A program made the translations under genes and the position numbers. A model generated the notes under the pieces. The model had not been told where the DNA came from and did not search any database. It was given only the letters and a program-made list of their open reading frames with translations. From Gemmatimonadota bacterium (lineage in GTDB: Bacteria > GCA-2686955), in assembly GCA_002686955.1 (NCBI GenBank), contig NYZA01000088.1:1-10318 (forward strand): a stretch of 10,318 nt of DNA. Reading direction: 5' to 3'. Positions 1,710 through 10,149 of this stretch are shown here, one piece after another. The stretch's first letter is position 1; each line of letters starts with the position of its first letter.

Positions 1710-2398
1710 TCGGTCGCCTCGATCTTCAGCGAGCCGAGATCCAGACGCTCGGAGACAATGGAGCGCACCTGGCGCTGCTGCTCTTCGACCGGCAGCGCCC
1801 CGTTGACGATCTCGAACTCGAACTCGCCGCACATCGCCTCATAGGCCTCCATGATCTTGCCCTGGTACATCTTGAAGCTGTCGGTGCGCTCCGTGCTGAG
1901 CCCGAGATCCATGCCCGCCTCGTGGAACTTCAGCCTCGGACGCCCGACCAGAATCCGGTCGAGGGCGGTCTTCAGGGGGGGGCGGAAGTAGAAGGTGATC
2001 GCCGGCTCCGGCGCGAAAGAGTAGAGGTTGCGCAGCCAATCGTCGGGCACACCCCGCACGCCGTCGCGGGCGTACGCCGTGTAGACATAGCGATCGCAAA
2101 GCACGAAATATCCCGCGCGCAGGAGCGGCAGCATCTGGCGCTCGAAACGATCCGCGAAATCGGTGCAGTGTATGAGCGAGAAAGTGGTCGGCGTCAGCGC
2201 GTTCCCCTTCTTCGCCTTCTTCGTCGCGCCCCTCACCAGCTCCGACGAATTCCACTCCGTGAACCAGACGCGATGGCCCGTCATCTCGAGCCAACGCTTC
2301 AGCAGATAGATCTGGGTCGACTTGCCCGATCCATCGAGACCCTCGACCGCGATCACCCGGCCCTTGATCTCACCGTTGTGTAAATCGATTCCGACCAT
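1706..2398 (-). CDS. Thymidylate-kinase-like P-loop kinase, intact Walker A (first gene of pair)
   Basis: 230-residue nucleoside-monophosphate-kinase-like protein; automated pipelines would probably call it dTMP kinase. Walker A GLDGSGKST is at residues 20-28 and is intact. CDRYVYTAYARD (101-112) carries the DR[YH] motif. The lid-like region has HEAGMDLGLS (159-168) followed by a run ending in Arg/Lys-rich helices. The normal TREPGG substrate motif after strand 2 is replaced by FTEWNSSEL (46-54), so phosphorylation of dTMP is uncertain. The LTPTTFSLIHCTDFADRFE region (68-86) resembles the central helices of the fold. The ATG at 2398 is the only ATG between the upstream in-frame stop (2416-2414) and the P-loop that leaves a family-length N-terminus; no clear Shine-Dalgarno is visible. 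Its stop overlaps the next start by 4 nt, and it is divergent from the sulfatase remnant across about 64 bp. Not every copy of this subfamily need be the housekeeping tmk; more likely a paralogous pair of its own. Confidence 0.83.
   Translation of the reverse strand: MVGIDLHNGEIKGRVIAVEGLDGSGKSTQIYLLKRWLEMTGHRVWFTEWNSSELVRGATKKAKKGNALTPTTFSLIHCTDFADRFERQMLPLLRAGYFVLCDRYVYTAYARDGVRGVPDDWLRNLYSFAPEPAITFYFRPPLKTALDRILVGRPRLKFHEAGMDLGLSTERTDSFKMYQGKIMEAYEAMCGEFEFEIVNGALPVEEQQRQVRSIVSERLDLGSLKIEATE
1717..1720 (-). promoter_or_regulatory. Ribosome binding site for the Arg-P-loop kinase paralogue
   Basis: GAGG on the minus strand lies 7 nt before the ATG at 1709, inside the 3' end of the preceding gene. 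It decides the start in favour of 1709 over the in-frame starts further upstream, which lie within the neighbouring gene. Confidence 0.6.
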
Positions 2399-2448
2399 TG
2401 GGAGATGGTAGCTTCATTGTCAGGATTGCTCAACTGAAGTCGCAGAGC

Positions 2449-2453
2449 GAGGA
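2449..2453 (+). promoter_or_regulatory. Ribosome binding site for the sulfatase remnant
   Basis: GAGGA lies 9 nt before the TTG at 2463. It supports TTG 2463, the frame that encodes the signal peptide, as the original start rather than the upstream TTG at 2398, whose frame encodes a non-signal-like leader. Confidence 0.55.
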
Positions 2454-2462
2454 TCGGCCTAC

Positions 2463-3228
2463 TTGTCAGCCCATCGGCGTCGTCTTCTCCGGTTCTTCAC
2501 ACTCATTCTCGGACTCTCGGCGATTCCGGGCGCCTGTTCTCGCGCCCGCGCCCGCCCCGACATTAGTCCTAATCCTCATCGACACCCTGCGCGCCGATCA
2601 TTTGAGCTTTCTCGGCTATCCACGCGAGACCGCCCCCTTTCTCTCCGAGCTCTCCACCCGCTCCGCCGTCTTCGAAAACGCCTTCTCCGCCTCGACCTGG
2701 ACCGCCCCGGCCACCGCCTCCCTCGTCACCGGCCGCTACCCGACCGATCACGGCATAGTCGAAGGCTTCATGGCGCACCAGGCCCGCACCCGTGAAGTCG
2801 ATCGCCTCGGCGCCTCGACCCTCGCCCTCGACCGCTTTCCCGAGCGCATCCCCACCCTCGCCGAGCTCCTGCGATCCGCCGGCTACGCCACCTACGGCCT
2901 CGCCTCCAACATCAACATTGGCGAACGAGGCCGCTCCGCCCCGCCGGTCTTCGCCCATCGACAGGAAAGGGATCGCCACCTCTGGGCCGTCCTCGATGGC
3001 CGCTGGAAGCTGATTCACGACGGCCGCTCTCCCGCCCTCTTCGATCTGCGAAACGACCGCGCCGAGCAGCGAAACCTCGCCGCCGGCGAACCGGAAATCA
3101 CCGCCCGGCTCTCCGAAGAGATCGACCGCTTCAAGGCCGGAGCCTTCCAAGAGCGAGGAGCTCGCATCGACGTGCCCCTCGATCGGCGCACCCTCGAAAC
3201 CCTGCGGACCTTGGGATATGTCGACTGA
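2463..3228 (+). pseudogene. Sulfatase / alkaline-phosphatase-superfamily gene, frameshifted and internally deleted
   Basis: Remnant of an exported hydrolase or phosphotransferase of the sulfatase fold. From TTG 2463 one frame encodes a signal peptide: RRRLLR, a hydrophobic stretch, then Cys25 in PGACS, a probable but imperfect lipobox. The catalytic part lies in another frame, beginning PTLVLILIDTLRADHLSFLGY (metal-site Asp region). Removing one C from the CCCC run at 2555-2558 joins the two as RARARPTLVLILIDTLRADH, just as in family members. The nucleophile region reads STWTAPATASLVTGRYP, with Thr (codon 2701-2703) where FGly sulfatases have Cys or Ser. After SNINIGE (about 2925) the frame passes straight to HLWAVLDGRWKLIHD and the usual C-terminus ending TLGYVD. 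The corrected product is about 254 aa against roughly 450-500 in the family, so the middle, with the later metal ligands, is missing. Almost certainly inactive, although the 1-nt shift alone could be an assembly error. Confidence 0.8.
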
Positions 3229-3356: not shown

Positions 3357-3560
3357 CTACTCCAGGAGCGCCGGCACATGGCGCTCGACACACACCGCGA
3401 TCCGCACCGCATCCTCCGCGTCGCTCATGGATACCGGTTCGAGTATCGGTAGGACGACCAAGAGATCTACGTCGCTTTCCGGACCCGCCGTGCCCCGTGC
3501 GTGCGAGCCAAAGATGATGATTCGGTCCGGATCGAATTGCTCCACGATCCGTCGAGTCAT
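3357..3560 (-). pseudogene. MNT-type minimal nucleotidyltransferase, truncated
   Basis: 67-residue piece of a minimal nucleotidyltransferase (NTP_transf_2/MNT family). Such proteins often act as antitoxins that AMPylate or otherwise modify a HEPN partner. The core signature is clear: RIIIFGSHARGTAGPESDVDLLVV, with GS at residues 18-19 and the metal-binding Asp pair D30 and D32. The expected C-terminal half, with the VVxTPE-like strand and third acidic residue, is missing. The frame stops after PALLE, and neither other frame on this strand continues the family sequence. Usual length is about 100 or more residues. The ATG at 3560 overlaps the stop of the preceding frame (ATGA), but no Shine-Dalgarno is visible and the foldback element begins only 15 bp upstream, so the original 5' context may be lost. 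No HEPN gene is seen nearby. Probably a dead remnant. Confidence 0.6.
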
Positions 3561-3570
3561 TCGGTGTCGA

Positions 3571-3574
3571 TTAG
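3571..3574. repeat. TTAG direct repeat, left (probable target-site duplication)
   Basis: TTAG directly abuts the left terminal inverted repeat of the foldback element, and the same four bases in the same orientation abut the right one. Most simply this is a 4-bp target-site duplication. A chance match is possible for so short a repeat. Confidence 0.6.
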
Positions 3575-3753
3575 GGGTCCGCGCAAGAACAACTTGTCAT
3601 CTTGGCGCCCAGATGTGCCGCGGATCTGGTCGATCGGTGAGTTCCGAAACCGGAGGAATAGTCGGGCTATTTCGAGGATTTCGGAGCTCGCCGATCGGCC
3701 GGAGATGTGGTGCAGATGGGATGCCAAATGACAAGGTATTCTTGCGCGGACCC
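3575..3753. mobile_element. 179-bp foldback (MITE-like) element with 15-bp perfect terminal inverted repeats
   Basis: Non-autonomous mobile-element candidate. The left end GGGTCCGCGCAAGAA (3575-3589) is perfectly inverted at the right end (3739-3753), and TTAG flanks both sides. The two arms pair along almost the whole length: by hand I count 66 Watson-Crick pairs, 10 G-U pairs (as + strand RNA), 6 G-A pairs in three tandem sets, 4 other mismatches, 2 single-base bulges and a 5-nt loop at 3662-3666. The centre is exactly base 3664. It encodes no transposase and is too short for one, although one frame is open through it on each strand. It interrupts a small exported-protein gene. A matching transposase would have to be supplied from elsewhere. 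The alternative is a long palindromic repeat or structured RNA not moved by a classical transposase. Confidence 0.8.
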
Positions 3754-3757
3754 TTAG
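3754..3757. repeat. TTAG direct repeat, right (probable target-site duplication)
   Basis: Right-hand copy of the 4-bp repeat flanking the foldback element, immediately after its last base. Confidence 0.6.
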
Positions 3758-3878
3758 CTCGAAAAATATCTCCGCCTCGTCGAGCTCGATCTCGTCCGCG
3801 GGTGCAGACAGTCCAAAAGCGAGACCGGCCGCCGCCAGGGCCGAAGTGTTCCATCGATTGATGCAGCTCATGGTGGTT

Positions 3879-3884
3879 CTCCTT
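3879..3884 (-). promoter_or_regulatory. Strong ribosome binding site for the interrupted exported-protein gene
   Basis: AAGGAG on the minus strand ends 7 nt before the ATG at 3871. This is the clearest Shine-Dalgarno in the window. It argues that 3871, and not the upstream in-frame ATG at 3922, is the start and that this reading frame was once a real gene. Confidence 0.7.
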
Positions 3885-4012
3885 CGCGAGGTCTTGCTGG
3901 ACGCCGAATGCGCCCAGTCCATGCGAATCGGCTCATGCGCAATCGCCGTGCCATCCGAACCGACGGGAAAATATGATGCTTCCGCGCGAAGCGAGGTCCG
4001 ATCCCTGCTCGA
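3885..4012. other. Intergenic spacer upstream of the interrupted exported-protein gene
   Basis: About 130 bp between the ribosome binding site of the interrupted gene and the end of the flavoprotein operon. It should hold a minus-strand promoter if the small gene is transcribed separately. I see an AT-rich spot at 3968-3977 and a small perfect hairpin (GCTTC/GAAGC around CGCGC, 3978-3992), but no convincing -35/-10 pair. Confidence 0.3.
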
Positions 4013-5417: not shown

Positions 5418-6640
5418 CGCGCCGAATCGACCGGGTTGCTCTCCGCGACGGCCGGCGCACCCGCCCCCCGGATATTCAGATGGGGGACGAGCAGGTGGGC
5501 CCATGCGAGGGTCCCGGCAAGAAAGAGGAGTGCGGCCGCGCCGATCCACTGAAGGAAGTGCGCGCGGTCGAGGTCGGCCGCGAAGCGCAGCACCGCCGCG
5601 GAGATGAAGCAGATTCCGAACGCCAACGGCTGCCAGGATCGCCCGCGAACGAGTCGCTGGTGCCCGGAGTGGGCCAGCGCGACATGCATGCCGACCGTGA
5701 ACGCCATCATCGCGAAACCGCCGATCAGGCCGATATGGAGCGCGCCCTTCTTCGCCTCGGGAAAGATGCTACCGAGCAGGTAGCCCGCGGGGAGCATCCA
5801 GGCGCTGAGCCAGAGCACCCGCCGGTGTCGCCCCGGAACCGTTGGAAAGCGCCGGATCCCCGCCCCTTCCAGCAAGACCGCGAGTACGATGGCGCCACGC
5901 AGGCCGTAGGCCAATCTCACCGAGACGAACACCTCGAGCCAGAACGATCCGACGAGGGCGGCGGAGGCCAGGGCATAGAGCGGCCACCGCCATCGGTCTT
6001 TCCGGCTCGCGTCGGGCGGTCCTTGACCCTGTGTGAGGAGGGGAAGGGCCAGCGATCCCGCACCCAAAACTAGACCGAGGAAGCAGCCTTGGAGCAGTGC
6101 CAGGCGACCGAGCTCATGGAGCCAGAAGGGCTCTCCTCCGCGGATCCCGTACGCGGCGATCGCGGCCGAGCCGGTGACTCCGAGCAGGATCGAGAAGGGG
6201 ATCCAGACGAAGCCCGCGGGGGGGCGGCGACCGGCGTCCGGGGCGACGAAGCGGCTCGCGACGAACCAGAGCAGCGTCGCCGCCAGAATCAGCCAGGTGG
6301 TCTGCGAAAGAACCCACGCCTGGTACCAGCCCGAAATCGTGACGATCGGTGGCGCGATCAGCCCGAGAGCAAGCTGCGCGCGCGACGGGGGCGGGGTGCC
6401 GGTCCGCCCGGGGATCGCCGTGTAGAGGAAACCGAGAGCGAAGCAGGTCAGAAAGCCTTGAATCTGTGTGATCGAGTGGAAGACCGGTCGGTAGTCGGGG
6501 AGCAGGGCGATCGAGTGCAGGAACCAATGAAGCACGCCGCCCCAAGCGAGGATCGCCCCCTCGATGAAGAAGACGGAGTAGGGTTCGCGCCGCCAGCGAT
6601 CGAAGACCGCGAGCGTTGTCGCGCCCGAGGGCGGGGTCAT
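5414..6640 (-). CDS. NnrS-like polytopic membrane protein
   Basis: 408-residue, very hydrophobic protein with about ten to twelve membrane segments, similar in length and motif order to the NnrS family, haem- and copper-containing membrane proteins linked to nitric oxide and nitrosative stress tolerance. The best matches are the FHSITQIQGFLTCFALGFLYTAIPGRTGTPPPS region (54-86), which corresponds to the family's H-x-x-x-F-G-F-...-FLLTAVPNWTG segment, and ALHIGLIGGFAMMAFTVGMHVALAHSGH (300-327), which corresponds to the ALHALTVGAIGTMTLAVMTR...GHTG segment. Candidate metal or haem ligands are H38, H42, H55, H175, H302, H319, H324 and H327. No denitrification or NO-sensing genes are visible in this window, so a nitrosative-stress role is only by family. 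Start ATG 6640 overlaps the stop of the peptidase gene (ATGA) and its own stop overlaps the flavoprotein start. No good Shine-Dalgarno is seen, so re-initiation after the upstream gene is likely. Confidence 0.72.
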   Translation of the reverse strand: MTPPSGATTLAVFDRWRREPYSVFFIEGAILAWGGVLHWFLHSIALLPDYRPVFHSITQIQGFLTCFALGFLYTAIPGRTGTPPPSRAQLALGLIAPPIVTISGWYQAWVLSQTTWLILAATLLWFVASRFVAPDAGRRPPAGFVWIPFSILLGVTGSAAIAAYGIRGGEPFWLHELGRLALLQGCFLGLVLGAGSLALPLLTQGQGPPDASRKDRWRWPLYALASAALVGSFWLEVFVSVRLAYGLRGAIVLAVLLEGAGIRRFPTVPGRHRRVLWLSAWMLPAGYLLGSIFPEAKKGALHIGLIGGFAMMAFTVGMHVALAHSGHQRLVRGRSWQPLAFGICFISAAVLRFAADLDRAHFLQWIGAAALLFLAGTLAWAHLLVPHLNIRGAGAPAVAESNPVDSAR

Positions 6641-9600
6641 CGGCCGGTGATCCAGAAATCTCGGGGATGAACGCGGTGGAGCCGGGCGTTCGCGTCGGTG
6701 CTCTTCAGGTAGGTTTCGTACGATTCCATCTGCGACTCCGGCCCGATGACGACATAGCACGCACCCGCGGGTGGAGGAGCGTCTCCGAGCCCCGGCAGCA
6801 CCCTCGCGCAGGCACCCTCGATCCGTGCCTTCAGCTCCGCCAAAAGAGCCGGCGGACCAAGCTCGTCTCGCAGGCGCAAGATCGCCTTGCGGTAGGCCCG
6901 CACCTGGCCGGGCAAGCGTCCGTCGGTGAGATCCGCCGCCATCGCCTCTCCCCTCAGCGAGTAGTGGGCGCCGGCGCGCGATTCCGAGAAGGTCTGCGCA
7001 ACGGCGTACTCGGCGAGGGAGGGATCTGGGTCGGCCGTGCTCAGCTCCGCGATCACGAAGCGGATCGTCTGCGCGAGGTCGGGGCAGCGCTCCGCGTAGT
7101 AGGCGAGACGTCCTTCCGCCGGACGGTCCCGCAGGCCGTTGGAGTAGGCCAAACCGGCGCTCCACGTCTTCATGAAGAGGCTGTGTGCTCCTCCGCCGCC
7201 GTAGAGGCGCGTGGCGAGAAAGTCGAGAAGCTGATCGCGTCCCAGGTCGGCGTAGCGGCCGCAGGGGGCCGTGTGCACGATCACTCCGGTGCTGGTGCTC
7301 GCGTTGACGACGCCAATATGGAGCGGATGGGAGTCCTCTTCGTTCGCCCCGCGCGCCCGAAGGCGGGCCACGATGTGGGGGGCTCCGGAGTGTTCGTGCA
7401 CGGCGGAAGGGCCTTCGGTCAGCTCGCCGATGATCGCCGAGATCGGCTGCTCGATGGCGGTGAGTGAAGGCTCGTCCCCGACCGTGAAGAGACGCAGGTT
7501 GTCGCGGTGCCGGATCTCGGCGAGCGCCTCTTCGAGCTCCCGTAGCCCGTTGGCGGGGGGCGTACAGAGCTCCGTAGCGATCGTCGCGCAGATCTCGCCC
7601 CAATCCAGCGCCAGGCTCGCATCGGGGCTCTCCGTCATGCAGTAGCCGAGGTCGTCACAGGCCTCCCGGAGCATCGCCCGGCCCCTCGCATCGAGTGCCT
7701 GAGCACCGGCCGCCCATCGCCCGCTCTCACCGGCCTGCCCCTCTTCGGTCAGGGATGCGAGCAACTCGGTGAGGCTCTCTCGTGAGGGTTCGCCTACTTC
7801 TCCCAGCTCACGAACGAAATCGGCCACGCCTCCCGGATCGTCGCGAAGCAACCAACGCAGCCGAAGCAGATCATAGGTTTGCGCCGCGTATGAATTCAGT
7901 CCCAACTGCAGTGGATCGGATTGGCGCCGCCAAGAGAGCTCCACCCCTCCGACCCAACCCTCTTCGGCTCCTCGGGGCGTGGCGCGTGTCGCCGCCAGAT
8001 CTCCATCGATCACGTCGCGGATTCGCGACAGATTCTCCGCTCTCCAGTCCGGATGAAAGAGCCCGAGACGCAGCCAGTGCATTGCCCTCTCGTTCTCGTC
8101 GGGCCGCGTACCCGCTCCCTTGATCACCAGCTCCACGCGCGAGGTCGAGCTGCTGGAGCTGTAATAGGCAACGAGCCCCCAGATCTCGCGGCGCAATGCC
8201 TCGGTCATCTCCGTGTGAGAGATAGGTTTTCCATTGTCGATGACACCCACATCGAGCAAAAGTGATGCCAGCGAGGAAACAATGAACCGGCGCCTTTGGG
8301 ATACTCGATCGAGTCGAAAGGCCAGACCGACTGTAGCACCACTCATATGGTCGAAGACCGACTCTACCGTGGGCACTCCGCAGATCGATCGACAACTGTA
8401 TTGGAGATGATCGTCGATCGTCATCGGGGGATCGTCGACGAAGCGCGGCATTTCGATCGACTCCGCCGAGGAATCGATCTCATCGGAGCGCAGATCGTAC
8501 TCCTCCCTGAAGAGGCGGAGCGAATCCTCTCCTTCCGCTTCGAAACGGGCATCCAGCTCCACCCGAGCCGATTGGAGTCGGTTCTCCTTCTCGATCCGTT
8601 CCTTTTCGAGCAGCCGCGGGTCGGGGCACACACTGACCGCATAGGGAGCAACACCGACGAGTCCCCATCTTCGGAGCCGGTCTCGCCAAGCATTTCCACG
8701 GGATGCCGCCAGCAAGAGTTCGAGCCGGTCGTGGATCGCCTTCATCGCGAGCGATCTTCGGAATCCACCGATCTTGCGAAGCTCATCGAGATGGGCCATC
8801 CAGCCTGCACCGGCCGATCTATAGCCAAACCCCGGTGGCGTGTTGAGAAAGTGTCGAGCCGCGCGGCGGCTTTGGATCAGCCGCCCGCGCCCGCGCTTAT
8901 TGAACTCGGCGAGCTCATCGGAATCGCCAGGAAGCGATGCGATCCTCTCGATCTCAGCGCGGACGATTGTCGCCACCTGATCCGCCTTCTCGCGCTCGGT
9001 TGTGTCGCGGTCGACGTTTCGCAAGCCGATATGGACGGAATGGCCGCAACTGTCGTCCACCCAGCCGAAGGCGGCCGAGGCGCCCGTTTCGATCACGCGC
9101 TGCGCGGAATCGACGAATCGAGAGTGGAGAATCGACGTCTCGCCGGAGGCCAGATTGGCCACGAAGAGGCCGAGCAGGCCGGCCTCCTCCGGTTCGAGGT
9201 CGCTGATCGGCGCGAAAGCGAAGACGAGCTCGGAGGGAGCATCGGGGTTGTGGCTCGGATAGGTTCCAGATCGGGTCGTGCCGGCGGCGGCCGGGATCGG
9301 CTCGGGGAGGCGATCGTCGGCCGTGGCCGGATCGCCAGCCGTGCGCGCATCGGGCTCGACGCGCTCGAGGATTCCAGAGACTTTTTCGATCCCCTCCTCG
9401 AGCGATACTTCATCTGGAAGACAGAGGATCATCCCCATGTTGGAAATACGATAGGCATCGCCGTGAAAGCGGCGTAGATGATCCGGCGTCATCGTTCTGA
9501 TAGCGTCGGGGCGTCCGCCGGAATCTCGTGCCAACGGGTGATCCTCACCGTAGAGCAGTAGACCCAGCTCATTCGAAAGAAAGGTCCAGGGATGCTCGTA

Positions 9601-10149
9601 GGTGCTGATCATCTCACTGTAGACGGTGCCCTTTTCTTCGAGCGTCACGGTGCCGGTCGCCGGATCGGTCACCGGCCCCAGGTGACACACTTCGCGCCGG
9701 ATCTCTTCATCGCTGAAATCGGGGTGCACGAGCGCATGAAGCTGGCTCTCCAGTAGGCCGAAGAAGACCTCCGACCCCGAGGCCGTATGTATGTGATAGC
9801 AGGTCTTGGTCTGCATCGTGAAGGCGGAGCTCTCTCCGAGCGACATCTCCTCGAGTGACGCGTGGGCGCGACCTCGGCGTCCCTTGCCCAGCAGCAGATG
9901 CTCGCAAGTATGCGGTTCCCCTCGCTGCGAGGGGGGGGCCGTATTCACCCAAAGAAAGACCTGAGGAACCGATTGCATCCGCAACACATCGAGGATGAAG
10001 CCGCTGGGTCGATGACGCATGCGCGCACCCATCGGCCGGTCCGCATCGTCGTCGTAGATCGCCTCGGCACCGAAATCTGCGACAGCGGCATTCGGCGTGA
10101 GTGTGCTCAAAAAAGTGTTGTCGGTTTTCGATGGCATCGGCTGGCTCAT
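6637..10149 (-). CDS. M16 family zinc metallopeptidase, PreP (M16C)-like
   Basis: 1170-residue member of the pitrilysin/insulinase clan, most like the M16C (presequence protease/falcilysin) type, which has both halves of the clamshell in one chain and degrades short peptides. The inverted zinc motif HTCEH is at 80-84 (ligands H80, H84; catalytic base E83). The third ligand is E179 in TVYSEM, 96 residues after E83, which fits the PreP spacing. HPLARDSGGRPDAIRTMTPDHLRRFH (204-229) matches the conserved stretch of the first domain. A charged helical linker at about 510-570 fits the M16C-associated hairpin. The second half ends with a Gly-rich stretch near residues 981-986, followed by TWSAGLAYSNG, equivalent to the substrate-clamping region. 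The usual length is about 970-1000, so this one is somewhat long. There is no signal peptide, so it is probably cytoplasmic. ATG 10149 overlaps the stop of the upstream gene (ATGA). It is the first complete gene of the operon and is coupled to the NnrS-like gene. Confidence 0.88.
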   Translation of the reverse strand: MSQPMPSKTDNTFLSTLTPNAAVADFGAEAIYDDDADRPMGARMRHRPSGFILDVLRMQSVPQVFLWVNTAPPSQRGEPHTCEHLLLGKGRRGRAHASLEEMSLGESSAFTMQTKTCYHIHTASGSEVFFGLLESQLHALVHPDFSDEEIRREVCHLGPVTDPATGTVTLEEKGTVYSEMISTYEHPWTFLSNELGLLLYGEDHPLARDSGGRPDAIRTMTPDHLRRFHGDAYRISNMGMILCLPDEVSLEEGIEKVSGILERVEPDARTAGDPATADDRLPEPIPAAAGTTRSGTYPSHNPDAPSELVFAFAPISDLEPEEAGLLGLFVANLASGETSILHSRFVDSAQRVIETGASAAFGWVDDSCGHSVHIGLRNVDRDTTEREKADQVATIVRAEIERIASLPGDSDELAEFNKRGRGRLIQSRRAARHFLNTPPGFGYRSAGAGWMAHLDELRKIGGFRRSLAMKAIHDRLELLLAASRGNAWRDRLRRWGLVGVAPYAVSVCPDPRLLEKERIEKENRLQSARVELDARFEAEGEDSLRLFREEYDLRSDEIDSSAESIEMPRFVDDPPMTIDDHLQYSCRSICGVPTVESVFDHMSGATVGLAFRLDRVSQRRRFIVSSLASLLLDVGVIDNGKPISHTEMTEALRREIWGLVAYYSSSSSTSRVELVIKGAGTRPDENERAMHWLRLGLFHPDWRAENLSRIRDVIDGDLAATRATPRGAEEGWVGGVELSWRRQSDPLQLGLNSYAAQTYDLLRLRWLLRDDPGGVADFVRELGEVGEPSRESLTELLASLTEEGQAGESGRWAAGAQALDARGRAMLREACDDLGYCMTESPDASLALDWGEICATIATELCTPPANGLRELEEALAEIRHRDNLRLFTVGDEPSLTAIEQPISAIIGELTEGPSAVHEHSGAPHIVARLRARGANEEDSHPLHIGVVNASTSTGVIVHTAPCGRYADLGRDQLLDFLATRLYGGGGAHSLFMKTWSAGLAYSNGLRDRPAEGRLAYYAERCPDLAQTIRFVIAELSTADPDPSLAEYAVAQTFSESRAGAHYSLRGEAMAADLTDGRLPGQVRAYRKAILRLRDELGPPALLAELKARIEGACARVLPGLGDAPPPAGACYVVIGPESQMESYETYLKSTDANARLHRVHPRDFWITGR

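Follow-up and report, generated by a model that had tools for sequence, protein, structure and literature searches.

A hairpin MITE with a strand-polar interior in a Gemmatimonadota bacterium

Imperfect palindromes may be read as DNA or as the nucleic acid that one of their strands can fold into, and the differences between their arms can bear on which of the two matters. The window, that is, the whole stretch of 10,318 nucleotides analysed here (contig NYZA01000088.1 of a Gemmatimonadota bacterium), contains a long hairpin of this kind. An earlier note, made from the sequence alone, had proposed that its arm differences are biased towards pairing of the + strand read as RNA, and that the hairpin could be a mobile structured RNA, or an element selected as RNA or as a folded strand of one polarity. 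The questions raised by this locus are whether the hairpin moves, whether one strand is kept foldable, and in which molecule. The features on which the answers depend are the following:

3575..3753, + strand: whole element, a 179-nt imperfect-hairpin MITE, the + strand being the well-folding strand
3571..3573, no strand: left target duplication TTA, in the context TTAG on both sides
3754..3756, no strand: right target duplication TTA, from the sequence and the flank comparison over copies
3575..3594, + strand: left terminal inverted repeat GGGTCCGCGCAAGAACAACT; the same 16-base end, differing from the family form at 1 position, terminates an ISAzo13-family transposase gene at locus L162
3734..3753, + strand: right terminal inverted repeat AGGTATTCTTGCGCGGACCC, from the alignment of copies
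3605..3610, + strand: GCGCCC, pairing with 3718-3724 around a bulged A; the motif is found in acidobacterial cores too
3718..3724, + strand: GGGATGC, 3' partner of 3605-3610
3612..3613, + strand: 5' half of tandem GA set 1, partner 3715-3716; A3613 in 33/33 copies, G3612 in 29/33
3715..3716, + strand: 3' half of set 1; GA in 33/33 copies
3623..3624, + strand: 5' half of tandem GA set 2, partner 3704-3705; each position kept in 29-33 of 33 copies
3704..3705, + strand: 3' half of set 2 (sequence and copy alignment)
3653..3654, + strand: 5' half of tandem GA set 3, partner 3674-3675 (sequence and copy alignment)
3674..3675, + strand: 3' half of set 3 (sequence and copy alignment)
3650..3680, + strand: apical part CCGGAGGAATAGTCGGGCTATTTCGAGGATT, kept also by divergent copies with differing stems

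Copies, ends and surroundings of the element

The genome holds more than 40 dispersed copies of the element, with terminal inverted repeats of 20 bases and a 3-bp target duplication of the TNA type (33 near full-length copies, first alignment), and identical 3-mers flank 19 of 32 copies against 6.3 expected from shuffles. Dispersed copies, terminal repeats and target duplications bear out the mobility proposed in the earlier note, and the element, being short and non-coding as well, has everything by which a MITE is recognised. The right-hand target triplet falls on a stop codon of either strand in 24 of 32 copies; since a TNA target is often a stop codon, many copies lie exactly at gene ends. 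Other ends, GGGTCGGCGAAGAAATAA, are found on some copies of this genome (L251, L254, L265). At one place (L002; contig C17, 57829-57849) two copies adjoin, the left end of a full one following directly on the right end of another, with a single TTA serving both. Mini-copies of 87-89 nt are also found (L345-L348, L364), in which both ends are present, the apical part is missing and the tips differ; they probably arose separately, by deletion between direct repeats of the two arms, and the 87-nt ones were left out of the analysis.

The terminus of the window element, GGGTYCGCGCAAGAATAACT, ends an ISAzo13-family transposase gene (PF07592) of another bacterium (L162) with 1 mismatch in 16 bases, 41 bp past the PF07592 domain. 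The form GGGTCTGCGCAAGAATAACTTGG, which closes that gene, is also found at both ends of a larger ISAzo13-like element (L036/L166) of the same genome. Ends held in common with an ISAzo13-family element, the mark of a MITE of that family, are thus present. In the assembly of the window's own genome, the search for an intact ISAzo13-family transposase returned only a broken, dead PF07592 fragment, and a living copy may be unassembled there.

Within the window, the element lies 15 bp upstream of an NTP_transf_2 (MNT-like) gene (3357-3560) and seemingly interrupts a small exported-protein ORF on the - strand (3557-3922; MSCINRWNTSALAAAGLAFG...DEAEIFFEL). Two adjacent, overlapping ORFs of the thymidylate kinase family (PF02223; 1014-1832 and 1706-2398, - strand) are probably diverged tandem duplicates. 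The sulfatase-like ORF at 2398-3228 (+ strand), whose Pfam match spans only profile positions 1-95 of 301, looks internally deleted. The 1170-aa protein encoded at 6637-10149 (- strand) has no Pfam match; its HxxEH-like motif (HTCEH) suggests a putative M16-type peptidase.

Strand polarity and covariation of the stem

When the two arms of the window hairpin are aligned to each other with no reward for wobbles, the + strand shows 66 Watson-Crick pairs, 10 G·U, 2 A·C, 9 purine–purine and 0 pyrimidine–pyrimidine appositions. The earlier count of ten G-U against two C-A is therefore exact, and the three tandem GA/GA sets can be read in the sequence where they had been placed. The binomial p is 0.039 for 10:2, 0.004 for 9:0 and 2e-4 for both combined. 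The folding energies of the two strands, a comparison that the earlier note had called for, agree with this polarity: as RNA, the + strand reaches -132.5 kcal/mol (z -15.8) and the - strand -96.8 kcal/mol.

The polarity is a property of the family and not of one copy. In 35/35 aligned copies there are more G·U than A·C sites and more purine–purine than pyrimidine–pyrimidine mismatches; equal G-U and C-A numbers in other copies, which were to count against the idea, are thus not seen within this genome. The + strand folds better in 35/35 aligned copies with DNA energy parameters and in 33/33 copies folded with RNA parameters, and the bases of the three GA sets are nearly invariant (33 copies). 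By parsimony, Watson-Crick pairs of the inner stem changed to G·U 51 times vs 14 times to A·C (p = 4e-6), while the outer arms, including the terminal repeats, gave 41 changes to G·U vs 28 to A·C. A tree-free count of the inner stem sorts the changes by whether copies share them: those common to at least two copies comprise 14 G·U vs 2 A·C, whereas those private to a single copy are unbiased (11 vs 10). This contrast (Fisher p = 0.035, one modest test) is read as selection acting on the element as it propagates, and not on the host locus where a copy sits: we read landed copies as drifting and the spreading lineage as being under selection. Cytosine deamination of one strand was considered as a cause of the wobble bias and rejected, since both transition types are skewed in the first reconstruction of the inner stem (C>T 25, G>A 6; A>G 21, T>C 6) and deamination alone would not do this.

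Covariation, the other property on which the earlier proposal was to stand or fall, is plentiful in this genome. Over the whole stem 33/80 pairs change on both sides, a number reached by 0/500 shuffles and compared with 8-14 in slid controls; the inner stem alone gives 16/51 pairs vs 2-4. Stem-pair covariation together with conserved loops, the usual signature of a structured RNA, is hence found here, a signature that RNA and single-stranded DNA have in common. In a palindrome, covariation can also arise via DNA-level correction of one arm by the other. A covariance-model search of the genome recovered copies with almost wholly rewritten stems (L349-L351, L362, L363). The step GCGCC/GGGATGC, the AGAT loops and the apical GGAGG...TCGAGG have survived in these copies (in part in L349), and their + strand remains the better-folding one (L350: -127 vs -100). 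Rewritten stems around conserved loops are the pattern expected of a functional fold.

Similar cores under other terminal repeats

A 15-base end was searched for in a public genome collection, many matches being due to chance. Hairpins of 154-180 nt with the window-type end, mostly at TNA sites, occur in Acidobacteria, Vicinamibacterales and Planctomycetota. Their inner 80-100 nt recur in acidobacterial genomes under other ends, namely GTGGTCCCGGTCATAA, AGCAGCCCGTGGTGAA, GTGGTGTGTCCCTCAA, GTGTCCCGAATCAGAA, GTGCAGTGATCGCA, GTAGTGCGTCCGAAATAGG and a short form GGTTTTCGGAG, and at least eight other terminal-repeat types surround the acidobacterial-type core, which also has three tandem G·A sets. 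A core model, R1, gives over 70 copies per genome in three genomes and matches 6 of the 386 genomes of a wider sample, among them the window's own, where two R1 core copies (L370, L377) have yet another end. Head-to-tail arrays of core hairpins, without recognised transposon ends, were also observed (L219, L218, L279), with a spacing of ~103-106 nt (~166 nt in G065).

Among 22 divergent cores, 21/27 pairs show two-sided change and 94% of the cells pair vs 27-51% when slid; the single C-G pairs that separate the GA sets are C-G in some cores and G-C in others, without one-sided standard intermediates. All families examined have more purine–purine than pyrimidine–pyrimidine mismatches (13:1, 12:1, 13:1, 18:1 and so on). 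The same does not hold for G·U: G·U:A·C is 2:4 and 2:6 in two related families, and within-family changes of the acidobacterial families have no G·U bias (12:13 in the type A inner stem). Homology between the window core and the acidobacterial core is not significant by covariance model (best E 0.3). The same kind of core under many terminal repeats suggests that MITEs of different transposases either exchange this module or have kept it by convergence. A wider and quite tentative extension is that an undescribed structured module (RNA or single-stranded DNA, ~85-115 nt, with three tandem G·A sets) might hitch-hike between MITEs of many transposases in several phyla, its strand-specific fold driving their spread.

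Possible roles of the folded strand and known systems

Signals that would assign the fold to one molecule were sought in several ways. A search of the window element and its immediate flanks gave no promoter-like site, and neither a transcript nor a protein partner came to light. Rfam 15 gave no match above the gathering score and nothing credible at loose thresholds, where two weak miRNA-precursor matches reflect long hairpins only, and phage, plasmid and viral-contig collections gave no match. Sense placement relative to neighbouring genes was not found and the tendency is weakly opposite, the + strand being antisense in 30 cases vs sense in 14 where the flanking genes are co-oriented (genes from a simple purpose-made gene caller). 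Core orientation has no replichore bias in the one complete chromosome with many cores (G065; ~20:19 in one replichore). Since DNA and RNA energies favour the same strand and neither promoter, sense nor replication signals appear, the data reveal a foldable strand and not which molecule, and RNA and folded single-stranded DNA cannot be told apart here. Of the earlier proposal, mobility has held, selection as a folded strand of one polarity is supported (covariation, GA loops, 14:2 vs 11:10), and RNA is left as one of two candidate molecules. Among known single-strand systems, the integron attC identity was rejected, as the R' core site GTTRRRY is absent from the window element; RAYT involvement would not be needed. 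No Y1 transposase was found in the core-bearing genomes G060 and G065, and one or more were found in the others, the window's included.

These observations suggest that a folded single strand, RNA or DNA, matters to the spread of these elements. With moderate confidence, we take the window hairpin to be an ISAzo13-type non-autonomous MITE whose strand-polar folded interior serves propagation. A DDE transposase of the ISAzo13 family would move it in trans. The interior is a conserved strand-polar module, a long covarying stem broken by tandem G·A sets formable only on the + strand, and this strand would be used as a folded single strand at some step of the element's life cycle, RNA being a little likelier than single-stranded DNA. 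If fold-keeping changes spread with the element and landed copies decay with no strand bias, the fold would serve propagation, whether by mobilisation, by a gain in copy number, or by escape from silencing or instability, and not the adjoining gene.

Among the alternatives, the best surviving one, albeit rather unlikely, is that the + strand acts as a single-stranded DNA hairpin at replication forks or during transposition, joining the terminal repeats as one duplex end or offering a nuclease or transposase target, as in attC or REP/RAYT. DNA energies favour the + strand in every aligned copy, and tandem G·A sets are stable also in DNA. Known single-stranded DNA motifs do surface in RNA-motif screens, for instance the attC-like OTH-22-1 (PMC8632094). 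However, the indifference of core orientation to replichores, the two core-bearing genomes in which no Y1 transposase was found and the missing attC R' motif all argue against it. The second alternative, which we hold to be unlikely, is an ordinary palindromic MITE in which the arm differences are a meaningless legacy of the founder and compensatory changes are produced when one arm of the quasi-palindrome corrects the other. The unbiased private changes, the acidobacterial families lacking within-family G·U bias and the existence of chimeric copies with mixed arms (e.g., L135) are in line with such an origin. Nevertheless, changes shared between copies favour the founder's direction by 14:2, the GA sets, which arm correction should erase, hardly vary, loops are kept while divergent copies rewrite their stems, and families of other phyla also have the purine–purine excess. 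The least supported reading, and a very improbable one, is a function in cis on the host mRNA, where the hairpin would serve as an RNase III site, a stabiliser of the message or a terminator. In its favour, ERIC, NEMIS and similar MITEs of comparable size are transcribed and act so on host mRNA (PMC3733652), and the copies are found near the ends of genes, often at stop codons. Against it stand the excess of antisense over sense placement, opposite to expectation, and the landed copies, which have no strand-biased conservation.

The preferred reading, a MITE with a propagating fold, carries a warning: RNA-motif screens may catch mobile hairpins. MITEs are usually viewed as two transposase-binding ends with a meaningless middle. 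If a one-strand fold is truly conserved under many unrelated ends, bacterial MITEs would own a functional structured part, and this part would offer a handle on how non-autonomous elements come to outcompete those on which they depend.

Folding MITEs are already known, and the window element, with its strand-polar conserved interior, is a variant of which no description, nor of its core, was found in a literature that was mostly open-access with few subscription journals. Like ERIC, YPAL, NEMIS (Correia), RUP and EFAR, it belongs to the MITEs of 100-200 bp with terminal inverted repeats, a target duplication, dozens of copies and RNA hairpins (PMC3733652). It differs in that its fold is specific to one strand, its tandem G·A loops hardly vary, its stem covaries on both sides and a similar core occurs under many terminal repeats. 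To our knowledge, nothing of this kind has been reported for those five. The GTAG- and CGTC-tagged REP/RAYT systems also consist of repeated hairpins that have strand polarity and in which unpaired bases are conserved; the window hairpin is five to eight times longer, has terminal repeats and a target duplication, and no tag is seen. Integron attC sites are likewise imperfect hairpins with conserved mismatches of which one strand is used, whereas the window element is without their R' core site and is dispersed with target duplications. Finally, the ISAzo13-family insertion sequences (PF07592) share with the window MITE the terminal sequence and the TNA context, seen at the L162 end and at both L036 ends, and differ from it in their coding sequence, the MITE having none and an interior unrelated to the transposase gene.
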